This document shows, piece after piece, positions 1 through 10,760 of a stretch of DNA of 10,760 nucleotides; positions within the stretch are counted from its first letter, which is position 1, and every line of letters begins with the position of its first letter. Where the stretch lies: the NCBI GenBank assembly GCA_002400675.1, contig NVQY01000169.1, positions 1-10,760 of the forward strand, in the 5' to 3' direction. The position numbers were made by a program, and so were the translations under genes. This DNA is from Paracoccaceae bacterium (GTDB lineage Bacteria > Pseudomonadota > Alphaproteobacteria > Rhodobacterales > Rhodobacteraceae). The notes beneath the pieces were generated by a model. It did no database searches. It worked only from the letters and a program-made list of their open reading frames with translations, and was not told where the DNA came from.

Positions 1-1834
1 AAGGAACGTCATCTTGCCCCCCCGCGACGCCGTCTGCCGCCCCTGCCACGGCATCCGGTGCCGCCTGTTTGGTTGCCCCCAACCGGCTAAGCCAGAACAC
101 GAACACCATGATTCCCATGAACCCCAGCGTAACGGCGGTGATGGTGTTGCCGGCCTGCCCGATGGTCGGGATATAGGCCTCGGGCGAGGCATCTTTCATG
201 ATGGTATAGATGTGCCAGTTGGTCCTTAGCGACGAGCGGATGTACCCCATCAGCCCCATCAGCCAGGTAAACGCCACCGGCAGCACGAACAGCGCATATT
301 GCGACCGCTCGCTCATCCGGCCCCAGTGGATTTTCTCGGCCTTCGCCCCGCGCAGCATAAAGATGTCGATGATCACCGACCCGATAATGATGCTTAGCGT
401 GGTCACAACCTGCGGCACCGATGCCCCCACCTTGTAGACCGTGGGTGTGAGGTAGCCATAGATCCCGGCCCCGACGATGTTCAGACAGCCAACCACATAC
501 AGTGCCACAACCACGCTGTTACCGGCCTTGGCCCAGCTGACCGTTGGCACCCTTGAGGAGCGATAGAACATCTGGAACGACAAAAAGGTAAACACCAACA
601 TCAGGTTCACGGCCGTATTCTTGGCCGGCATGATGCCCAAAGGGCCCAGCAACTTGTGATTGGTGCCGCCCAGAACCTGCAATTCCTGCGAGGTCAGGAT
701 CAGCGAATGCGGCGTCACCCAGACCAGAAACCCGCCGACAATGACCACGGCGATGTATTTGACATACTTAGAATATTGCGCGCCCCGGTCCGTGCGCATC
801 AACCCCGACCACAGGTAATAATTCGCCGCCAGCATAATCGTCCCGATCAGCACCGCCTGAATGATGAACAACCACGCCAGAATTCCGCCCATGGCGGTGA
901 TGCCCATCTGTTGCGAATAGGCATAAATCTCGGCCATCAGCCAATAACCGGCAAACGGCAGCGGCAGGAACCCGAGGATGGCGATAAAGTTCGAGGTATA
1001 GCCCATCCAGTCGTAATGCGCCTTGTCCTCGGGTTTTTTGGCGGCCAAAAACATATAGGCGGCGTAGCCCCCGACAATGGCCCCTCCGTAGGCGATATTG
1101 GCGAGAAACCTGTGCAGGTTCAGCGGGTTCCACAACGGATTGCGCGTGGCCTCCCAGACGCTACCGGTGATGGCTCCGGCGGCGTCCACACCGGCGGGCG
1201 ACATCATGAACGTGGCCCAGGCGTTGGCGACAAACATCAGCGTCAGACCAATCGTGTTCAGCAACAGACCAATCGACATATGCACCCACTTGCGGTTGCC
1301 GTGTCGCAGCGCGTCCCAGGAATAGAAATAGACATAAAGCGTGATGGATTCGAGCCCGAACAACAGCGCGTAAACCAGCGTCTGGCCGCGAAACACCTTT
1401 AACATATAGCCCATCAACTGCGGGTAAAACAGGAACAAGGCGATGGTCAGCGCGCCGCCCACAAGGGCCGTCAGCGAATAGGCAGCCATGGAAATCTTCA
1501 TGAACTCCCGCGCCATCGAGTCATACCTGGCATCGCGGGCCACAACGCCCATGAACTCGGTCGCAATGGCAAACAACGGCACCGACAACACGAACGCCGC
1601 CAGAAACAGGTGCATCTGCGCCAGCCCCCAGGCAATGGTGCGCGCGCTTAACCCGCCGATCTGCGGATAATCCGCCGCCGTGGGCTTGGGTGCCCCCACC
1701 AACGCATCCCCGACAAAACCCGGATCCCCCGTCGCCGACGCCAGATCCGGCAGGGCGACTGCCAGCAACGCCAGCGCACTGAATATGGCAATCCTGGTCA
1801 CCGGGCGGGACATCATTTCCTGCATATCGCTCAT
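1..1834 (-). CDS. Divergent cytochrome bd oxidase subunit I-like (CydA superfamily) membrane protein, partial at C-terminus
   Basis: The frame stays open from an ATG at 1834 to the window edge: 611 residues visible, C-terminus missing. About 14 hydrophobic segments can be drawn: an N-terminal signal or anchor (about 14-33), a short loop, then a polytopic core from about 66 to 585. The first core helices align by eye with CydA. MHLFLAAF places His75 at the CydA haem-ligand His19; FGLESITLYVYFYSWD places Glu162 at Glu99; FVANAW...SPAG matches the CydA FVANGW...NP stretch; NLHRFLANIAYGGA places His241 at His186. Met412 may correspond to the Met393 ligand. The quinol-site motifs are absent: GDESGYE is replaced by a region with PFAGYWLM, and GRQPW by LRTNW (536-540). 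The tail after 586 is rich in Ala, Gly and Asp, like an interdomain linker. The start overlaps the stop of the 42-residue gene (ATGA), implying translational coupling; no good ribosome binding site of its own is seen. Expected role: an inner-membrane haem-containing oxidoreductase or terminal oxidase. Its electron donor cannot be read from the sequence, and no CydB-like subunit is visible here. Confidence 0.8.
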   Translation of the reverse strand, partial: MSDMQEMMSRPVTRIAIFSALALLAVALPDLASATGDPGFVGDALVGAPKPTAADYPQIGGLSARTIAWGLAQMHLFLAAFVLSVPLFAIATEFMGVVARDARYDSMAREFMKISMAAYSLTALVGGALTIALFLFYPQLMGYMLKVFRGQTLVYALLFGLESITLYVYFYSWDALRHGNRKWVHMSIGLLLNTIGLTLMFVANAWATFMMSPAGVDAAGAITGSVWEATRNPLWNPLNLHRFLANIAYGGAIVGGYAAYMFLAAKKPEDKAHYDWMGYTSNFIAILGFLPLPFAGYWLMAEIYAYSQQMGITAMGGILAWLFIIQAVLIGTIMLAANYYLWSGLMRTDRGAQYSKYVKYIAVVIVGGFLVWVTPHSLILTSQELQVLGGTNHKLLGPLGIMPAKNTAVNLMLVFTFLSFQMFYRSSRVPTVSWAKAGNSVVVALYVVGCLNIVGAGIYGYLTPTVYKVGASVPQVVTTLSIIIGSVIIDIFMLRGAKAEKIHWGRMSERSQYALFVLPVAFTWLMGLMGYIRSSLRTNWHIYTIMKDASPEAYIPTIGQAGNTITAVTLGFMGIMVFVFWLSRLGATKQAAPDAVAGAADGVAGGQDDVP

Positions 1835-1959
1835 ATCGGCATCAAATCCGCGCCAACCGGCAGACCCTGCAAATTCATGATGTAGCGGTCCATCGCGTAG
1901 AAAAACGCGCCCCATGCCACCAGTGCCAAAACAAAGACAATCAGCTTGCTTGCGTTCAC
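1831..1959 (-). CDS. Small single-span membrane protein (42 aa), likely accessory subunit of the CydA-like protein
   Basis: A GTG-started frame of 42 residues, MNASKLIVFVLALVAWGAFF at its N-terminus, then YAMDRYIMNLQGLPVGADLMPI. Residues 6-21 form one membrane-spanning helix and the short remainder is polar to neutral. A strong ribosome binding site (AGGGGGG, about 1966-1972) sits 6 bases before the GTG, which decides the start. The stop overlaps the ATG of the CydA-like gene by 4 bases (ATGA), so the two are very probably translated together. Known bd oxidases carry tiny single-helix subunits (CydX, CydY/CydH), and by position and topology this could play such a part. I see no sequence similarity to CydX that I would trust, so the role is inferred from context. 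Confidence 0.72.
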   Translation of the reverse strand: MNASKLIVFVLALVAWGAFFYAMDRYIMNLQGLPVGADLMPI

Positions 1960-1990: not shown

Positions 1991-2113
1991 TCAATGCACC
2001 GAAACGACGCCGTGGTCGTAGATCAAAAGCCACCAGAAAAAGGTCAGCATCGCGACTGCGGTCAGCGCAAAGACGATCTTGCCCAGAATTGCGGTTTTCT
2101 CTTTTGGCTGCAT
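1991..2113 (-). CDS. Small single-span membrane protein (40 aa), first gene after the FNR-type box
   Basis: A 40-residue frame beginning MQPKEKTAILGKIVFALTAV and ending in a WWLLIYDHGVVSVH-like tail. A basic N-terminus is followed by one transmembrane helix (about residues 10-31), suggesting the N-terminus inside. An upstream in-frame ATG at 2173 would add 20 polar residues, but it abuts the FNR-type box (2173-2186) and has no ribosome binding site. The ATG at 2113 has a GGTGG about 5 bases ahead and lies downstream of where an FNR-activated transcript would start, so I prefer it. The gap to the next small gene is 31 bases. It probably belongs to the same transcript as the CydA-like gene and may be a small subunit or assembly factor; no family is recognised. 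Confidence 0.6.
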   Translation of the reverse strand: MQPKEKTAILGKIVFALTAVAMLTFFWWLLIYDHGVVSVH

Positions 2114-2241: not shown

Positions 2242-2544
2242 TCAGTACCGGGTCGCGCATTTCTCAGAGATCACCCGCTCCAGCCGTTGCAGATAGTCCG
2301 GCGTGGATTCGCCACTTTGCTGCGGTACCAGAAAGATCAGTTTGGCGGCCACCAGATAGGGCCGTTTGCGGGCATCTCCCACGGGGTTGGGGTTGGTCAG
2401 GATATCTTCGACATAGCCGATGGCGGCGCGCGGATCGGCGCAATATCTGGGCAGGGCAGAGGTGTCCGCGTACCATCCCGCATAGCGAAATATCAGCATC
2501 ATCAACCCGGCAGTTATCGCAAACACTATCAATAAACGGCGCAT
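2242..2544 (-). CDS. Membrane-anchored protein of unknown function (100 aa)
   Basis: I do not recognise this protein. From the ATG at 2544 it has 100 residues: a short basic N-terminus (MRR), one hydrophobic helix (about 4-19) that could be a signal peptide or anchor, then a soluble, presumably periplasmic, domain of about 75 residues. That domain contains two cysteines (35 and 96) that could form a disulphide. An in-frame TTG at 2559 would add five residues, but GGAAAGG (2551-2557) fits better as the ribosome binding site for the ATG. The gene is divergent from the FNR-type regulator and points toward the CydA-like operon. The FNR-type box at 2173-2186 separates it from those genes, so it may be its own unit. 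Context suggests, without proof, a link to respiration. Confidence 0.6.
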   Translation of the reverse strand: MRRLLIVFAITAGLMMLIFRYAGWYADTSALPRYCADPRAAIGYVEDILTNPNPVGDARKRPYLVAAKLIFLVPQQSGESTPDYLQRLERVISEKCATRY

Positions 2545-2560
2545 TTCCGGCCTTTCCAAC

Positions 2561-2580: not shown

Positions 2581-2620
2581 GATCTGCCACCGGGCCTAGC
2601 GCGGACAATCTCAGGATGTG

Positions 2621-2634
2621 TTGACTCAGATCAA
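2621..2634 (+). promoter_or_regulatory. FNR/CRP-family operator upstream of the regulator gene
   Basis: TTGACTCAGATCAA fits TTGAC-N4-ATCAA, with one change from the symmetrical FNR consensus. It lies in the divergent region, 65 bases before the regulator start at 2699. A class II site centred here (2627.5) would put the transcript start near 2668-2669, and GATGAT (2656-2661, 4 of 6 matches to TATAAT) sits at the proper -10 distance. That points to autoregulation, either activation or, if the site is used otherwise, repression. Confidence 0.7.
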
Positions 2635-2698
2635 TAAAGCGTTCTGCCCCCATGCGATGATGGCGCAAACGTACTTTGATTATTTGAGGAATGGTCGC

Positions 2699-3466
2699 AT
2701 GTCGCCCCACCTTCCCGAACAATGTTCGCATTGTTCGATGTATTTCGACGCGGAAAATTTTTGCGCAAAACTGTCTGATGATGAACTAGTCGCCCTGAAC
2801 GCCCAATCGTCTTTGGTGACGATAAAACGCGACGAAGCCGTAACCGAAGAAACCCAAAAACTGCACCCGGTGATGGCCATCTCGTCGGGCGTTCTTAGCC
2901 TGCAACACCTGCTGCATGACGGGCGCAAAACCATCGCGGCGATCCTGATGCGGGGCGACATTCTGGACCTGCGCAACTCCACCCGAAACCAGCTTGGCGC
3001 GCTAATCGCGCTGAACTCTGTCACCCTGTGCCGGCTGTCCCCTGTCGTGTTCGACGCGGCAATCGCCGAGAACCCACAGGCGCGGATGCTGGCCTGGGCC
3101 AATATCACCGACCAGACGTTCCGGGCAATCAATCACGCCGCCGATCTGGCCAAGAAACAGGCGCTGGAAAAGCTGGCCTCGTTCATCTTCGAAATCCGCA
3201 ACCGCGATGTGCGCGTGCCGGGCAACGACCATGTGCATATTCCGATCCGGCGCCGTGATCTGGCCGAATATCTGGGCATGCAGCCCGAAACCGTGTCCCG
3301 TTGTTTCAAGGATCTGGCCGGGCGCGGCATCATTCACGTATCCGACCTGTCCGTCATCCGCATCCTCAACGCGCCGGCCCTGCGGCGGATTTCCAATGGC
3401 GACCGCTCTCCCAAAGGCGGGCGTTTGGACGTGCCTTCGTTCAATGTTCTTGTCGCCGACGCCTGA
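2699..3466 (+). CDS. CRP/FNR-family transcriptional regulator with four-cysteine FNR-like pattern
   Basis: A 255-residue protein with the CRP/FNR layout. The N-terminus holds C9-x2-C12-x9-C22, and a fourth cysteine (111, in VTLCRLSP) sits where FNR has its central cluster ligand, so an oxygen-labile [4Fe-4S] sensor is plausible. Residues about 40-125 form the cyclic-nucleotide-like beta barrel, 125-170 the long dimer helix, and 180-225 the winged helix-turn-helix. The recognition helix PETVSRCF has the E-x2-S-R pattern (E197, S200, R201) of proteins binding TTGAT-type sites. In-frame ATGs at 2618, 2657 and 2660 exist. The first lies just before the FNR-type box, so that frame would translate through it, and all three fall upstream of the transcript start predicted from the box. 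The ATG at 2699 has GAGG about 9 bases ahead, so I chose it. Nitric-oxide regulators of the Dnr/NnrR type usually lack the cysteines, so an FnrL-like oxygen sensor is favoured but not certain. Confidence 0.85.
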   Translation: MSPHLPEQCSHCSMYFDAENFCAKLSDDELVALNAQSSLVTIKRDEAVTEETQKLHPVMAISSGVLSLQHLLHDGRKTIAAILMRGDILDLRNSTRNQLGALIALNSVTLCRLSPVVFDAAIAENPQARMLAWANITDQTFRAINHAADLAKKQALEKLASFIFEIRNRDVRVPGNDHVHIPIRRRDLAEYLGMQPETVSRCFKDLAGRGIIHVSDLSVIRILNAPALRRISNGDRSPKGGRLDVPSFNVLVADA

Positions 3467-3471
3467 ACGCG

Positions 3472-4458
3472 ATGAAAACCGGCATTCTTCTGATCAACCT
3501 TGGCACACCCGAGGCCGCCGACGCCGCATCTGTGCGACGTTACCTAAAGGAATTCCTGTCCGACCCGCGGGTGATCGAGAAACGCGGCATTCTCTGGTGG
3601 ATGATCCTGAATCTGGCGATCCTGCCGCGCCATTCCAAGAAATCCGCCGCCGCCTATGCCCAGATTTGGAACCACGAACTGGACGAATCGCCGCTCAAAA
3701 CCGTGACCCGGTCGCAGGCAAACAAGATCGCCGCGCGGTTTGGCGATGATCCCGCGATCATGGTCGAATGGGCCATGCGCTATGGCGCGCCCTCAATCGC
3801 CTCCGGGCTGACACGCCTGACCGAAGCCGGCTGCGAACAGGTGCTATTGTTCCCGCTTTACCCGCAATATAGCGGCGCGACCACGGGAACCGCGCTCGAC
3901 AAAGCCTATGACGCGCTAAAGACTATGCGCCATCAACCGGCCCTGCGCACGGTGCCACCCTATCATTCCAACCCGACCTATATCCACGCGATTGCCAGAG
4001 ATATTACCGCGCATATTCAGTCGCTTGACTGGCGGCCTGACCATTGCCTCGTGTCATTCCACGGCCTGCCGGAAACCTTCATTCAGGCCGGCGACCCCTA
4101 TCAATCCCACTGCGAGGCAACCTTTGCCCGGCTGCAATCAGCCCTTGGGGCCGACGATGGTTTCCTGCGGCTAACCTACCAGTCGCGCGGGCGTGGGCGG
4201 GCGACCTGGACCGGCCCTCAGCTAGAGGAAACGCTGGTTGATCTGGCAGGCAAAGGCGTGAAAAACCTGTGCGTGGTCACGCCGGGGTTCGCCTCTGACT
4301 GCATTGAGACACTGGAAGAGGTGCAGATTCGCGCCGCCCGGACCTTTCGCGCCCATGGTGGCGCGAATTTCTCGCTTGTCCCCTGCCTGAACGACTCTGA
4401 CGCGGCGATTGCGTTGTTGCACAATTTGGCCCGCGAAAATCTGGCTGGCTGGCGCTAG
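3472..4458 (+). CDS. hemH: Ferrochelatase
   Basis: Inserts ferrous iron into protoporphyrin IX, the last step of protohaem synthesis, at the cytoplasmic face of the inner membrane. At 328 residues it is of usual bacterial length. Visible family features are the start MKTGILLINLGTPEA, the SFHGLPE motif with catalytic His197, TYQSRGRGRATWTGPQ (235-250; family form QSR-x-G-x2-W-x2-P, here with extra arginines and glycine), and PGFASDCIETLEE with the conserved acidic Glu279. The frame could extend upstream to 3301, but that would overlap the regulator and add non-family sequence; the ATG at 3472 fits exactly. It starts 5 bases after the regulator stop with no clear ribosome binding site, so it is probably co-transcribed and translationally coupled. 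The haem link fits the neighbouring haem-containing oxidase. Confidence 0.95.
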   Translation: MKTGILLINLGTPEAADAASVRRYLKEFLSDPRVIEKRGILWWMILNLAILPRHSKKSAAAYAQIWNHELDESPLKTVTRSQANKIAARFGDDPAIMVEWAMRYGAPSIASGLTRLTEAGCEQVLLFPLYPQYSGATTGTALDKAYDALKTMRHQPALRTVPPYHSNPTYIHAIARDITAHIQSLDWRPDHCLVSFHGLPETFIQAGDPYQSHCEATFARLQSALGADDGFLRLTYQSRGRGRATWTGPQLEETLVDLAGKGVKNLCVVTPGFASDCIETLEEVQIRAARTFRAHGGANFSLVPCLNDSDAAIALLHNLARENLAGWR

Positions 4459-4492: not shown

Positions 4493-6172
4493 TTACAATA
4501 TCCCCGGCAGGTTCAGCCCCTTTTCGCGGGCGCAATCCAGCGCAATTTCGTACCCCGCGTCCGCATGGCGCATGACCCCGGTGGCCGGATCATTCCACAA
4601 AACCCGCGCCAACCGCGCATCCGCGTCCTTGGTGCCATCGGCGCAGATCACCATGCCGGAATGTTGCGAAAACCCCATGCCGACCCCGCCGCCATGATGC
4701 AGCGACACCCACGTCGCCCCGCTGGCGGTGTTCAACAACGCATTCAGCAACGGCCAGTCACTAACCGCATCCGAGCCATCCTTCATCGCCTCGGTTTCCC
4801 GATTGGGCGAGGCCACCGACCCCGAATCCAGATGGTCGCGCCCGATCACCACAGGCGCCTTCAATTCGCCAGTGCGCACCATTTCATTGAACGCCAATCC
4901 CAACTTGTCGCGTTGCCCCAATCCAACCCAGCAAATCCGCGCCGGAAGGCCCTGAAACGCAATCCGTTCGCGCGCCATATCAAGCCAGTCGTGCAGATGC
5001 TTGTCGTCGGGGATGATCTCTTTGACCTTGGCATCGGTCTTGTAAATGTCCTCGGGATCGCCCGACAACGCACACCAGCGAAACGGCCCCACCCCGCGAC
5101 AGAACAGCGGGCGGATGTAGGCGGGCACAAACCCGGGAAAGTCAAAGGCGTTTTCTAACCCTTCCTCAAGCGCCACCTGCCGGATGTTGTTGCCATAATC
5201 CAGCGTCGGCACGCCCGCATTCCAGAAATCGACCATCGCCGCCACTTGGATTTTCATGCTGGCCCGCGCCGCCGTTTCAACCGCCTTGGGATCAGATTCG
5301 CGTTTTGCGCGCCACTCCCCCATGCTCCAACCCTGCGGCAGATAGCCATTGCGCGGGTCATGCGCGCTGGTCTGGTCGGTGACCATGTCCGGGCGCATGC
5401 CGCCGTCCTTCATCCGCGCCATCAACTCGGGAAACACGTCCGCCGCGTTGCCCAGCAGACCAACCGACTTGGCCTCGCCCGCCTTGGTCCAGCGATCAAT
5501 CATCGCCAGCGCTTCATCCACTGTCTCGGCTTTCTCGTCGAGGTACTTGGTGCGCAAGCGAAAATCTATGCTTTCAGGATTACATTCGACCGCCAGACAA
5601 CAGGCCCCGGCCATCACCGCCGCCAGCGGTTGCGCGCCCCCCATGCCGCCCAAACCGCCGGTTAAAATCCAACGGCCCTTGAGATCGCCTCCGTAATGCT
5701 GGCGGCCTGCCTCGGCAAAAGTCTCGTAAGTTCCCTGCACAATGCCTTGGGTTCCAATGTAAATCCAGGACCCGGCGGTCATCTGCCCGTACATCGCCAG
5801 CCCGCGTTTATCGAGTTCGTTGAAATGATCCCAGTTGGCCCAATGCGGCACAAGGTTGGAATTGGCGATCAAAACCCGCGGCGCGTTCTCGTGGGTCTTG
5901 AACACGCCCACCGGCTTACCCGACTGCACCAACAGGGTTTCATCGCTTTCAAGGTCTTTCAGCGTGGCGACAATTTTGTCAAAATCCTCCCATGTGCGCG
6001 CCGCCCGACCAATGCCGCCGTAAACCACCAGTTCGTGAGGGTTTTCAGCCACATCCGGGTGCAAGTTGTTCATCAACATGCGCATCGGCGCTTCGGTTTG
6101 CCAGCTTTTGGCAGTGATTTCCGTGCCGGTGGCCGGGAAAATATCGCGTGTGTTGTGGCGACTATGGGTCAT
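4493..6172 (-). CDS. hutU: Urocanate hydratase (urocanase)
   Basis: Converts urocanate to 4-imidazolone-5-propionate with tightly bound NAD+ as electrophile; cytoplasmic, second step of histidine breakdown. The 559 residues match the usual 550-560. Visible motifs are the glycine-rich NAD+ segment [12 protein letters not shown] (171-182), [19 protein letters not shown] (358-376), the urocanase signature [14 protein letters not shown] (406-419) with active-site Cys414, [18 protein letters not shown] (446-463) and [16 protein letters not shown] (491-506). The ATG at 6172 has AGGAGG (6179-6184) 6 bases upstream and overlaps the hutG stop by 4 bases. It is the last gene of the hutIHGU operon; its stop lies 34 bases from that of hemH, which converges on it, and no strong hairpin terminator is visible between them. 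Confidence 0.98.
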
Positions 6173-6963
6173 AGTGAACCTCCTGAGTAAACGAGTTGTT
6201 CCAAAGCGTTGAGGATGCGGGATAATGTTCCGCGCAGGTGATCGGCGCGGGCCTTGTCATAGGTCCACGGCGGGGCCTCTTGCATGTAGGTCGATTGCGC
6301 CAGTTCCATCTGAATCGCATGAATTCCGCGCACCGGGTGACCATAATTGCGCGTTGTCCACCCACCTTTGAAGCGCCCATTCACAACCGAGGTGAACCCA
6401 GGCACGGATTGACAGATTTCCTCCACAGCCTTCTCCATAGACACAGCACAGCTTGTGGAGGAATTAGTGCCAATGTTGAAATCCGGCAGGGTATCGGCAA
6501 ATAGGTAGGGGATTTTACCCCGGATCGAGTGACAATCGTACAAGATAGCCATCCCGTGAATCGCCTTGACCCGCGCCAGTTCTGTGGACAAGGCGCGATG
6601 ATAGGGGGCGTGATAGGTCTGGCGGCGACGCTCAATTTCCTGCGCATCAGGTTCGCATCCGTCACGATAGATCGGATTCCCGTCGAAATCCGTCACCGGG
6701 CACAGGCCCGTAGTGTTCTGGCCGGGATACAGGCTGGCATCATCAGGGCCGCGATTGACGTCGATCACATAGCGATGAATGGGCGCGCGTACGGTGGTCA
6801 CATTGTCCAGCAAACCACCGTAAAGACGGTGAATATTCCAATCCGTATCAGCCAGCGCCAGCCCCCGGTCGTTGAGCATTCCGGCAATATCCACCGGCAC
6901 ATCCGTACCCGTATGCGGCACCCCCAGAACGATTGGCCCGCTGCCTTGGGTGACCTCGATCAT
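6169..6963 (-). CDS. hutG: N-formylglutamate deformylase (N-formylglutamate amidohydrolase)
   Basis: Hydrolyses N-formyl-L-glutamate to glutamate and formate, the final step of the five-step histidine pathway; metal dependent and cytoplasmic. The 264 residues are the normal length of the proteobacterial HutG (FGase) family. Visible conserved blocks are [10 protein letters not shown] (14-23), DTDW (39-42), [11 protein letters not shown] (65-75), YDCHSI (142-147) and [11 protein letters not shown] (200-210), with His and Asp residues suited to metal binding. The ATG at 6963 follows AAGGCGG and overlaps the hutH stop by 4 bases; its own stop overlaps the hutU start in the same way. The presence of hutF nearby confirms that this HutG acts on formylglutamate and is not the ureohydrolase-type formiminoglutamase that shares the gene name. 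Confidence 0.95.
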
Positions 6964-8465
6964 GACGCCGCCTTGACCAAAGCGCCGTTGGAAACAAGAT
7001 CCGCCGCCTTGTTGATGTCCGGTGCCAGATAGCGATCAGGGCCCAACGTCGGCACGTCCTCGCGCAGTCGTGCGATCACCCGTACCAAGGCCGGCGACGT
7101 GGTGAGAGGCGCGCGGGCCTCAATACCCTGACATGAACAAAGCGCTTCAACCCCTTGGATAACCGCAAGATTCCTTGCCATCTTTAGCAGCCGATAGGCC
7201 CCGTGCGCTGCCATGCTCACGTGGTCCTCCTGATTGGCAGAGGTCGGCGTGCTGTCGGTCACGCATGGGTTTGCCAGATGTTTGTTCTCGCTCATCAAGG
7301 CCGCTGTGGTGACTTCGGCGATCATGAATCCCGAATTCAGACCCGGATCATTGGTCAGGAACGGCGGCAGATCGTGGCTAAGCGTTGGATCGACCATCAG
7401 CGCCACCCGGCGTTGGCCGATAGCGCCGATCTCTGCCAGCGCCAAAGCGATCAAATCTGCGGCGAAACCAACGGGTTCCGCGTGAAAGTTACCACCTGAC
7501 ACGATGCGCCCGCTCTCGACCAGCACCAGCGGATTATCAGTCACCGCGTTTGCTTCTATCTCAAGTGTGCGCGCGGCCATTTCGATGAAATCTGACGCCG
7601 CGCCAACAACTTGCGGCTGACAGCGAATGCAATATGGGTCCTGTACACGGGTGTCGCCATCGCGGTGGCTCTCGCGGATTTCGCTGCCGTCCATCAGTGC
7701 GCGCATTTGCGCGGCGACATTGATCTGGCCCGGATGACCCCGCAAGTCGTGGATTTCCGGCACCAGTGGCGCGGTTGACCCCATGATCGCGTCGGTACTC
7801 AGGGCGGCCATGACGATCGAATTAGCCACGGCGCGCTGTGCCTCAAACAGCCCGACCAGCGCCAATGCGGTGGAAAACTGCGTGCCGTTGATCAGCGCCA
7901 GACCCTCTTTTGGACCCAACACAACGGGCGTCAACCCGGCCTTGGACAGAGCCATTTCGCCCGGCATCACCTGACCGCCCAATGTCGCTTCGCCCGCGCC
8001 GATCATCACCGCCGCCATATGCGCCAACGGGGCCAGATCGCCGGATGCGCCAACCGATCCCTGATGCGGAATGACCGGGATGACGCCGTGTTCCAGCATC
8101 GCTGCGAGTTGCTCGCATATCGCCCAGCGGACGCCAGAGGCCCCACGCCCCAGCGACATCAGTTTCAGGGTCATCATCAACCGCGTCAGTTCGGGGTCAA
8201 GCGGGTCGCCCACCCCACAACAATGCGACAGGATCAGGTTTTCCTGAAGCTTTGCCGTGTCTTGCGGGGCGATCTTACGGCTTGCCAGTTTGCCGAACCC
8301 GGTGTTGACGCCGTAAACGGCGGCCTCTCCGGCAGCAGTTTTGGCCACCATGGCTGCGGCTGCCTCGACGGCCTGCCGTGCGCTTGGGATAAGTTTCACA
8401 GACAGGTTTTGGCGATAAATCCGCTCAAGATCGCCGAGTGTGACGTGCCCAGGTGTAACGATCAT
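6960..8465 (-). CDS. hutH: Histidine ammonia-lyase (histidase)
   Basis: Non-oxidatively deaminates L-histidine to trans-urocanate and ammonia, the first and committing step of the pathway; a cytoplasmic homotetramer in this family. The protein has 501 residues, as usual. The hallmark [15 protein letters not shown] (136-150) contains Ala140-Ser141-Gly142, which cyclise to the MIO electrophile. [11 protein letters not shown] (50-60) holds the conserved active-site Tyr51, and the SQ-type motif appears as [11 protein letters not shown] further on. The frame is open up to 8723, but those extra 86 residues overlap hutI and are unlike HutH. The ATG at 8465 has a strong GGAGG six bases upstream and overlaps the hutI stop by 4 bases. 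Confidence 0.98.
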
Positions 8466-9658
8466 TCCTTGCCTCCAAATATGCGCTGATAAAGTGGGTT
8501 GAACCCGATCCGATAGGCCAACTCGCCCGGTGTTTCGACGTCCCATATGGCCAGATCGGCCCGCATTCCGGGCGCGATTGACCCGGCATCTTTCACCCCC
8601 AGCGCGCGGGCGGCATGACAGGTCACCCCGGACAACGCCTGGGCCGGGGTCAGGCCAAACAGGGTGCAGCCCATGTTCATCGTCAACAATAACGAGGCCA
8701 GCGGCGATGACCCCGGATTGCAATCCGTGGCCAGGGCAATCGGCACCCCGTGGTCACGCAACGCCGCAACCGGTGGGGCCTGCGTTTCGCGTAAAGTATA
8801 GAACGCCCCCGGCAGCAAGACTGCGACCGTTCCCGCAGCCGCCAACGCCGCGGCGTCCGCCGTATTGGCATGTTCAATGTGATCCGCCGACAACGCGCCA
8901 TATCGCGCGGCAAGCGCGGTTCCCCCCAGATGCGAAAGCTGTTCGGCGTGCAGTTTAACCGGCAATCCAAGTTCATTTGCTACATCAAATACACGCGACA
9001 TCTGACTGGTATCAAACGCAATTCCCTCACAGAACCCATCCACCGCATCGACCAACCCCTCGCTGTGCGCGGCGCGCAAGGTCGGCAGGCAAACTTCGTC
9101 CAGATAGGCATCGGCGCGCCCGGAATACTCGCCCGGCACCGCGTGCGCCCCAAGGAAACTCGTGCGAATTCGCACGTCCCGCCGCACCGCCAACTGACGT
9201 GCAGCACGCAACATGCGCAACTCGGTTTCCGCATCCAGCCCATAACCGGACTTGACCTCGACCAGGGTCACCCCTTCGCTGATCAGCGCGTCCAAACGGC
9301 GCAGGGCCGACGCGATCAGCGCCCCGTCCGTTGCCGTTCGGGTGGCCGTCACGGTCGAGACGATGCCGCCACCGGCGCGGGCGATCTCTTCGTATCCGGC
9401 CCCGTTCAGGCGCATCTCGAATTCCAGCGCGCGGTTGCCGCCAAACACCAGATGGGTGTGACAATCCACCAGCCCCGGCGTGATCAGGCGACCTTCGACA
9501 TCTTCGCAAGGCCACGCCGCATATTCAGCCGGCAAATCCGCCCCGACATAGGCCAGCCTGCCGGCCTCTATCGCCACGTATCCTTTGTCCACAATCCCAT
9601 AGCCGCCTTCGGGGGGCATGGTGGCAATCTGTGCATTGCTCAAAACGCGCCGGGTCAT
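8462..9658 (-). CDS. hutI: Imidazolonepropionase
   Basis: Opens the ring of 4-imidazolone-5-propionate to give N-formimino-L-glutamate; a cytoplasmic metal-dependent amidohydrolase. The 398 residues fit the family (about 400). Amidohydrolase-superfamily metal ligands are visible: [12 protein letters not shown] with His67 and His69, KLHAEQLS with His237, the ADHIEH block with His260 and His263, and LATDCNPGS with Asp312. KSGYGLD (136-142) is a typical HutI substrate-pocket segment. It is the first gene of the hutIHGU operon. The ATG at 9658 has AAGGTAG about 6 bases upstream, and the 71-base region to hutF holds the putative operator. Confidence 0.97.
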
Positions 9659-9691
9659 TTTTGCTACCTTGTTATGTCTGGGTTATTACCG

Positions 9692-9707
9692 TTATGTATA
9701 GACATAA
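9692..9707. promoter_or_regulatory. Putative GntR/HutC-type operator in the divergent hutI-hutF promoter
   Basis: TTATGT-ATAG-ACATAA is a perfect 6-base inverted repeat with a 4-base spacer; its core GTATAGAC fits the GT-N-TA-N-AC pattern typical of GntR-superfamily regulators, including HutC. A further half-site, GTTATGTCT (9671-9679), repeats the left arm (GTTATGT at 9691) exactly 20 bases away, about two helical turns, on the hutI side. The palindrome covers a possible -10 for hutF (CATAAT, 9703-9708). A repressor bound here, released by urocanate in known HutC systems, could silence both directions. No hutC gene is in the window. Confidence 0.68.
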
Positions 9708-9729
9708 TAGAGTCGTCAAGAGGTGAATC

Positions 9730-10760
9730 ATGACCGTACTGCTGGCAAAATCGGCGCTTCTCCCGGATGGGTGGGCGCGTGATGTAACGGTTCAGATTGG
9801 CGCGGATGGGCGCATAACGTCGCTTGACCCGGTTGCGAAATCCACCTCGGTGGACCACCATGTGGACATTCTGGTGCCGGCTCCGGGCAACGTTCATTCC
9901 CATGCGTTCCAGCGCGCCATGGCCGGGCTGTCCGAACGGCGCGGCACCAGCGGGCAAGACAGTTTCTGGACCTGGCGCCAGCTGATGTTCCGCTTTCTCG
10001 ACCGGCTGACGCCTCAGGACGTGCAGGCGATTGCCGCGCAGGTGCAGATGGAAATGCTTGAGTCCGGCTATGGGGCGGTGGGCGAATTCCATTATCTGCA
10101 CCACCAGCCTGGCGGCATTCCTTATGACGACCTTGGCGAGATGAGCGCGCGCATTGCAGCTGCCGCCAACCAGACTGGAATCGGGCTGACAATGTTGCCG
10201 GTGCTGTACCAGCAAGGCGGGGTTGATGGGCGCGCGTTGGGGCCCGGGCAGATCCGGTTTGGCAATGATCCTGATCGGTTCTTTCGTCTGTTGGAAACCG
10301 CCGGGCAGGCAATCTCAGGCCTGCCGCAGGACACAAATCTGGGCGCGGCCCCGCATTCCCTGCGCGCAGTATCGCGCGAGGCGTTGCGCGAGATCGTGAG
10401 CAACACGACCGGCCCGCTGCACCTGCATCTGGCCGAACAAAAGGCCGAAGTTGACGAGGTTGCCGCCGCTTACGGGGCCAGACCGGTGCAATGGCTGCTG
10501 GACAATCAGCCGCCCGACCGGCGGTGGTGCCTGATCCACTGCACCCAGATGTTGCCCGAGGAAACCACCGGGCTGGCCAAAACCGGGGCCGTGGCCGGGC
10601 TGTGCCCGATCACCGAAGGGTCGCTGGGCGATGGCATCTTTGACGGCACCAGATGGCTGCAAGCCGGCGGCGCGACGGCCATCGGATCGGACAGCAACAT
10701 CCGCATTACCCTTAGCGAAGAACTGCGCCAGCTAGAGTACTCCCAGCGCCTGAAAGACCA
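9730..10760 (+). CDS. hutF: Formimidoylglutamate deiminase, partial at C-terminus
   Basis: Converts N-formimino-L-glutamate to N-formyl-L-glutamate and ammonia, feeding HutG; cytoplasmic amidohydrolase-superfamily enzyme. 343 residues are visible before the window ends, out of a family length of about 450. Seen are the metal-binding PGNVHSHAFQRAMAG (His55, His57), the HutF-typical SFWTWR block (78-83), APHSLRAV (207-214) with His209, LHLHLAEQ (230-237) with substrate and metal-pocket histidines, His270, and IGSDSN (318-323) with Asp321. The ATG at 9730 follows AGAGG (9719-9723) by 6 bases. It is divergent from hutI across the shared promoter. Genes beyond the right edge may include the regulator or a transporter, but they cannot be seen. 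Confidence 0.95.
   Translation, partial: MTVLLAKSALLPDGWARDVTVQIGADGRITSLDPVAKSTSVDHHVDILVPAPGNVHSHAFQRAMAGLSERRGTSGQDSFWTWRQLMFRFLDRLTPQDVQAIAAQVQMEMLESGYGAVGEFHYLHHQPGGIPYDDLGEMSARIAAAANQTGIGLTMLPVLYQQGGVDGRALGPGQIRFGNDPDRFFRLLETAGQAISGLPQDTNLGAAPHSLRAVSREALREIVSNTTGPLHLHLAEQKAEVDEVAAAYGARPVQWLLDNQPPDRRWCLIHCTQMLPEETTGLAKTGAVAGLCPITEGSLGDGIFDGTRWLQAGGATAIGSDSNIRITLSEELRQLEYSQRLKD

Follow-up and report, generated by a model that had tools for sequence, protein, structure and literature searches.

The window analysed here is the whole of contig NVQY01000169.1 (C96; 10,760 bases) of a Paracoccaceae bacterium, whose genome is a 68%-complete assembly of 2.88 Mb in 251 contigs. At its 5' edge it carries CydL, a divergent membrane protein of the CydA superfamily. 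CydL is read here, with about an even chance of being right, as a cytochrome-c-linked, bd-like terminal reductase that draws on the same c-type electron pool as an Idr-type enzyme, O2 being the probable acceptor. Judged by likeness, CydL is a putative 'cytochrome bd-like oxidase' (OR-N), a protein type already known. The novelty appears to rest in its pairing with idr-type genes, which lie past the contig edge and often stand in one operon with CydL in relatives. This pairing, with the gene set attached to it, was not found in searches of open-licence papers in PubMed Central. The two genes at the edge of the window are as follows.

2..1834, minus strand: CydL, divergent CydA-superfamily (bd-like, OR-N-like) membrane protein of 611 residues; ATG at 1834, 3' end at the contig edge with no stop inside the window.
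1..12, minus strand: cytC (cytochrome c), opening codons MTFL only; the start matches MTFLRVIGFS of relatives.

The remainder of this cytC is probably on contig C163 (locus L097) of the same genome. In window 1-30 the CydL frame runs past the ATGA overlap at which relatives such as L020 stop, and a seven-G run lies just ahead of the cytC start.

The original prediction gave CydL the haem-binding half of CydA without its quinol-oxidation motifs, and both points were borne out. The Pfam profile search matched CydL to PF01654 at profile positions 10-251 only (52.8 bits); the canonical CydA of the same genome (G000:C17, L001) matches over the full profile length with 557 bits. H75, E162 and H241 align with H19, E107 and H186 of E. 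coli CydA, and none of the three varies across 78 CydL rows, 8 divergent relatives and 4 rows of the paralogue CydP (see below). Also invariant over these rows are E302, E384, H393, M402, K405, R533, W540 and H541, several of which sit in the region that replaces the Q-loop. The Q-loop motif of GDESGYE type and the GRQPW motif are both absent from the CydL sequence of the window. Residues 536-540 read LRTNW, residue 537 being R in 60 of the 78 CydL rows and K in the other 18. Met412, put forward earlier as a possible haem ligand, was rejected as a family-wide ligand of haem b558: it is invariant in CydL, yet Ile stands in its place in 4/4 CydP rows. The position of E. coli Met393 was aligned to Q326 or to A408 of CydL, varying with the alignment method. 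The structure model of CydL has 15 helices of at least 16 residues, one of them the short stretch 292-307; a crude hydropathy scan gave 11 segments. In the model the predicted CydA fold is retained with its His/Glu core, H75, E162 and H241 standing at the CydA positions. A tree of the N-terminal core (70 rows) split 42 bd-like from 28 canonical CydA rows by one branch (100/100, with a long-branch warning) and left CydL outside canonical CydA, as had been anticipated. The canonical rows L124, L131 and L143, with branch lengths of 8-10, looked like wrong open reading frames (ORFs) and were left out of this tree. No match to PF02322 (CydB) was obtained among the 5 + 7 + 8 proteins scanned, a scan that did not take in the small upstream protein s42.

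A genome scan yielded 205 relatives of CydL, the best 80 of which define loci L003-L082, with CydL in 80/80. By record title these loci belong to alphaproteobacteria (71-85% identity), gammaproteobacteria (59-67%) and one member of the Lambdaproteobacteria (71%); the gammaproteobacterial titles include Thiodiazotropha, Sedimenticola and Parabeggiatoa. In all 76 loci with at least 600 bases downstream, cytC is the next gene after CydL. At least five fusions of a CydA-like protein with cytochrome c (P0159, P0179, P0194, P0207 and P0212; PF01654 plus cytochrome c domains, 875-888 residues) were met in the best 120 of 6068 proteins related to the G080 homologue, itself 46% identical to CydL. The cytochrome c part is C-terminal in the three fusions inspected, and the sources named include Rhodocyclaceae and Methylomirabilota. 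These natural fusions and the cytC of the operon are the main evidence for cytochrome c as redox partner, and CydL appears to draw electrons from cytochrome c and not from quinol. The original claim of a source other than quinol at the usual site gains support, since the motifs are absent, cytC follows without exception and the fusions occur. Its other option, an acceptor different from O2, gained neither support nor contradiction. A second, longer CydA-like paralogue, CydP (about 716 residues), is found with cytochromes of its own in other alphaproteobacterial islands (L102, L109, L110, L111 and L153), beside IdrA where the stretch reaches that far, and adjoins CydL in several alphaproteobacteria. 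Murali et al. (2021) reportedly divided the cytochrome bd superfamily into three families and are said to have made a finding on archaeal CydAA'. A second CydA-like paralogue of the CydAA' type was not found in the 68%-complete genome of the window. No Nitrospira or Nitrospina name was present among the best 120 of 6068 relatives (G080 query) or the best 120 of 5623 (CydP query).

Farther downstream, cytEB (cytochrome c/EB_dh) is present in 63 of the 64 loci with at least 2.2 kb, and some idr-type gene in 39 of the 53 loci with at least 7.3 kb (IdrB or IdrA in 36 of the 53). In locus L020, cytEB combines an EB_dh domain (PF09459, 73 bits; TIGR03477, 92 bits, under its cut-off) with three stretches of cytochrome c. 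Behind it come two dihaem proteins of the MauG/cytochrome c peroxidase family, then a Rieske protein matching TIGR02694 with 114 bits and last a molybdopterin subunit. In genome G006 the whole order lies on a single contig: regulator (divergent), S105, CydL, cytC, cytEB, P1, P2, IdrB, IdrA and a HEAT-repeat gene, then p246, SUMF1, universal stress protein (USP), radical SAM and PPOX. The genome of the window carries a split copy. C163 opens inside cytC and carries cytEB, P1 and P2; C99 (L098) opens inside IdrB and carries IdrA, HEAT, p246, USP, radical SAM and PPOX. The contig ends of C96, C163 and C99 agree with the gaps predicted from the gene order of relatives.

IdrA is told from the arsenite oxidase AioA by synteny with the P1/P2 peroxidases, according to passages of PMC8692401. 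Such synteny (two dihaem cytochrome c peroxidases plus Rieske) was met in G006, L020 and others, and in the window's genome is split over C163 and C99. Counterparts on plasmids of Vibrio, Azonexus and Thiothrix share 66, 51 and 50% identity with the IdrA-like protein of G006, and the listed plasmid AioA-type proteins 26-31%; named homologues at 75-81% identity are among the 120 matches listed. A 53-row tree separated 49 IdrA-side rows from 4 AioA rows (100/100), the rows holding no biochemically proven IdrA. A HEAT-repeat gene was also seen directly after idrA in loci without CydL (L149, L150, L151 and L152), which suggests an Idr-specific role for its product, such as maturation.

Co-occurrence was counted over 385 alphaproteobacterial genomes (CydL at E<=1e-30, IdrA at E<=1e-150). 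CydL was found in 11, IdrA in 12 and both in 7, giving a Fisher p of 1.1e-9 (2.2e-8 without the window's genome) when genomes are treated as independent, which they are not. The 11 CydL genomes include G080 (46% identity, another gene setting) and the fragment G349. With the window's genome counted each time, CydL occurs in 5/61 near genomes, 11/385 of the class and 4/398 of the phylum. A tblastn search of plasmids with CydL gave no match. The label 'with CydL' changes 7 times on the IdrA tree, at least 5 of the changes being forced by starred branches; the pairing has therefore been gained or lost repeatedly.

In the proposed mechanism, CydL would keep the N-terminal bd core, with two His of haem-ligand type and one Glu, and would have exchanged the quinol-oxidising Q-loop for extra membrane helices. 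With the small proteins s42, s40 and S105, cytC and the trihaem cytEB (EB_dh of the type-II-DMSO-reductase gamma kind), it may form one membrane module. This module would resemble the bd-like/alt-NxrC module of nitrite oxidisers, placed here beside a periplasmic molybdoenzyme of IdrABP1P2 type. Electrons from the bc1 complex would enter the c-type pool (cytC/cytEB) and leave it by two sinks: CydL may reduce O2 where O2 is low, and IdrAB may reduce iodate while IdrP1/P2 clear peroxide. The simplest reading is a c-type pool that bc1 reduces and from which CydL (to O2) and IdrAB (to iodate) withdraw electrons. We infer complex formation, the direction of electron flow, O2 as substrate of CydL and iodate as substrate of Idr. 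A cytochrome b match is present in 14/15 CydL genomes, and COX1-family (PF00115) matches in 15/15, those in G656 being fragments; on the COX1-family matches, CydL as sole oxidase was rejected. The COX1 family also takes in NO reductases.

Several observations weigh against this proposal. Over at least 7.3 kb downstream, 14 of 53 CydL loci have no idr gene; among the 385 genomes, 4 of 11 with CydL lack IdrA and 5 of 12 with IdrA lack CydL. Neither partner therefore needs the other. In the window's genome the genes are spread over three contigs, so that their adjacency there is taken from relatives, and no cytochrome b match was obtained in this 68%-complete assembly. A canonical CydA and COX1-family proteins are encoded in the same genome, and a further oxidase therefore looks redundant. 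Lastly, beyond residue 384 no Glu is invariant over the CydL, divergent-relative and CydP rows. Glu445 of E. coli is thus without a conserved counterpart in CydL, and the site of the second high-spin haem must therefore differ from that of the known O2-reducing bd enzymes.

The strongest alternative, which we hold as a tentative possibility, is that CydL is a membrane entry or exchange point for Idr, moving electrons between the quinone pool and cytC/cytEB by way of a quinone site other than the Q-loop. CydL would then fill the place of a quinone oxidoreductase, noted in passages of PMC8692401 as missing from the known idr cluster. Against this stand CydL-type proteins without idr genes nearby (G080 included), the IdrA genomes without CydL and the frequent cytochrome b match, and the likeness of CydL to subunits of alternative complex III may be merely that of a shared helical bundle. 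It is doubtful that the Idr-type enzyme works instead as an oxidase, by chemistry like that of AioA or with some donor yet to be named, while CydL serves as its dedicated O2 reductase, an arrangement proposed for NXR and the bd-like oxidases of nitrite oxidisers. Several CydL host names are those of sulfur oxidisers, a point counted in favour of this idea. The IdrA of the window's genome (420 bits) and the IdrB of L020 (114 bits) match arsenite oxidase models, and the NXR and bd-like oxidases of nitrite oxidisers offer an analogy. The protein falls in the IdrA-side clade, however, apart from the four AioA rows, and has the P1/P2 synteny given as the distinguishing mark in the relevant passages of PMC8692401. 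An improbable reading has CydL reduce another small oxidant, for example a reactive iodine species, peroxide or NO, and so assist Idr in detoxification. In its favour are the operon shared with an IdrA-like enzyme and two dihaem cytochromes of peroxidase type, and the changed ligands at the second high-spin haem. Against it, CydL-type proteins are found in loci without any idr gene in reach, IdrP1/P2 already suit peroxide removal, and no feature of the CydL sequence indicates another substrate.

A set of tetrapyrrole-type genes that accompanies CydL may bear on the kind of haem it carries. The two on C99 that carry PCP_red (protochlorophyllide reductase) domains, placed by domain matches, are as follows.

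L098 8044-9393: radical SAM gene with a PCP_red domain.
L098 6468-8126: USP gene with two PCP_red stretches.

The radical SAM protein scores highest with NirJ2 (304 bits) and AhbD (292 bits), both under the cut-offs of 500, and the FAD protein of C99 is above the protoporphyrinogen oxidase cut-off (128 versus 97.85 bits). Of the 80 CydL loci, many of them short, 39 have USP, 32 radical SAM and 5 PPOX, and of the 14 loci in which no idr gene was in reach, 12 have a USP or radical SAM gene. None of these genes was seen in three idr-only plasmid loci (one of which covers only one side of idrA) or in five idr-only genome stretches. The set therefore travels with CydL rather than with Idr. It comprises a NirJ2/AhbD-like radical SAM protein with PCP_red, the PCP_red-bearing USP, PPOX and, in some loci, ferrochelatase. 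From this linkage we infer, as an unlikely extension, that CydL might bear a purpose-made non-standard (perhaps chlorin-type) haem from the linked set and, with cytC/cytEB, form a dedicated membrane module that wires iodate respiration to the respiratory chain. If true, the bd superfamily would gain a new type of complex, and the linked genes would offer a clue to how haem d-like cofactors are synthesised.

Upstream of CydL the window holds the following features.

1831..1959, minus strand: s42, about 42 residues, single hydrophobic helix, ends QGLPVGADLMPI and shares ATGA with the start of CydL.
1991..2113, minus strand: s40, ORF of 40 residues, single hydrophobic helix (WWLLIYDHG).
2242..2559, minus strand: S105, ORF of about 100 residues, one N-terminal hydrophobic helix.
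2618..3466, plus strand: Crp/FNR-family regulator, divergently oriented, called from GTG 2618; under the FnrL equivalog cut-off.
2621..2634, plus strand: TTGACTCAGATCAA, resembling an FNR box with 1 mismatch, close to where the divergent regulator begins.
3469..4458, plus strand: ferrochelatase (hemH), from a profile search.

A Q[GN][LM]P motif lies upstream of CydL in 73/76 relatives, a count made without a chance control. The strict s40 motif was found in 18/76, and some gammaproteobacterial loci have similar short proteins upstream of CydL. S105 has no Pfam match; homologues are present in 28/80 loci, mostly just upstream in alphaproteobacteria. A regulator homologue adjoins CydL in 12/80 loci, and ferrochelatase stands beside the regulator in 10/80. 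The FNR-box-like sequence lies within the regulator ORF if GTG 2618 is the start, and is intergenic if the start codon lies later. Equally good matches were given by 0.4% of shuffles. As a conserved element the box is weak: of 13 equivalent regions, only 3 have a box with 1 mismatch or none. The rest of the window (4493-10758) holds histidine-degradation-like genes, identified by eye from translations: hutU, hutG, hutH and hutI on the minus strand and a hutF-like gene on the plus strand.

The original prediction also stated that divergent bd-like families have been noted yet little characterised. This agrees with passages of PMC3578206 and PMC6606698, where the role of bd-like proteins without a quinol site in nitrite oxidisers is termed enigmatic or still to be determined. 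G006 is a family-level relative of the window's genome whose assembly is complete in one contig, and the module carried there would open donor, acceptor and haem type to testing. By its link to Idr-type genes the module is a candidate membrane partner of iodate reduction, for which no dedicated electron route is known, and it is therefore relevant to the cycling of iodine. How bd-type haems are made may be approached through the tetrapyrrole-type genes that follow CydL.

Among known systems, ActC/ActF of alternative complex III gave no match in the sequence searches and has partners that differ from those of CydL. Canonical CydAB shares with CydL the predicted fold and the equivalents of H19, E107 and H186; CydL differs in having no Q-loop motif, GRQPW or conserved Glu445, in cytC standing in place of cydB and in its separate clade. 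The arsenite oxidase AioBA resembles the Idr-type proteins in their matches to TIGR02693 and TIGR02694, but identity to the listed plasmid AioA proteins is only 26-31%, and AioA clusters are without peroxidases according to the literature. The published idrABP1P2 cluster likewise has two dihaem peroxidase-like proteins, a Rieske protein and a molybdopterin subunit; the CydL-linked clusters keep the P1-P2-B-A order found on the Azonexus plasmid but place CydL, cytC and cytEB ahead of it. The closest likeness by description, in a tree that holds no named OR-N sequences, is to OR-N of Nitrospira, Nitrospina and anammox bacteria, whose types are summarised in parts of PMC10839748 and PMC12342949. 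Passages of PMC3578206 give the bd-like oxidase of nitrite oxidisers about 14 helices, with extra helices in the place of the Q-loop and the quinol residues missing, and a CydA-like N-half is shared with CydL. In the three groups it is accompanied by c-type cytochromes and an alternative gamma subunit of NXR; passages of PMC6606698 describe this clustering and consider a role as NXR anchor or in reverse electron transport. Like CydL, OR-N has membrane c-type cytochromes and an NxrC-like (EB_dh) subunit encoded nearby, and its bd-like_3/bd-like_4 pair may be likened to CydL and CydP in one island of some relatives. CydL differs from OR-N in that its partner in Alpha- and Gammaproteobacteria is an enzyme of IdrABP1P2 type and not NXR, with tetrapyrrole-type genes alongside.
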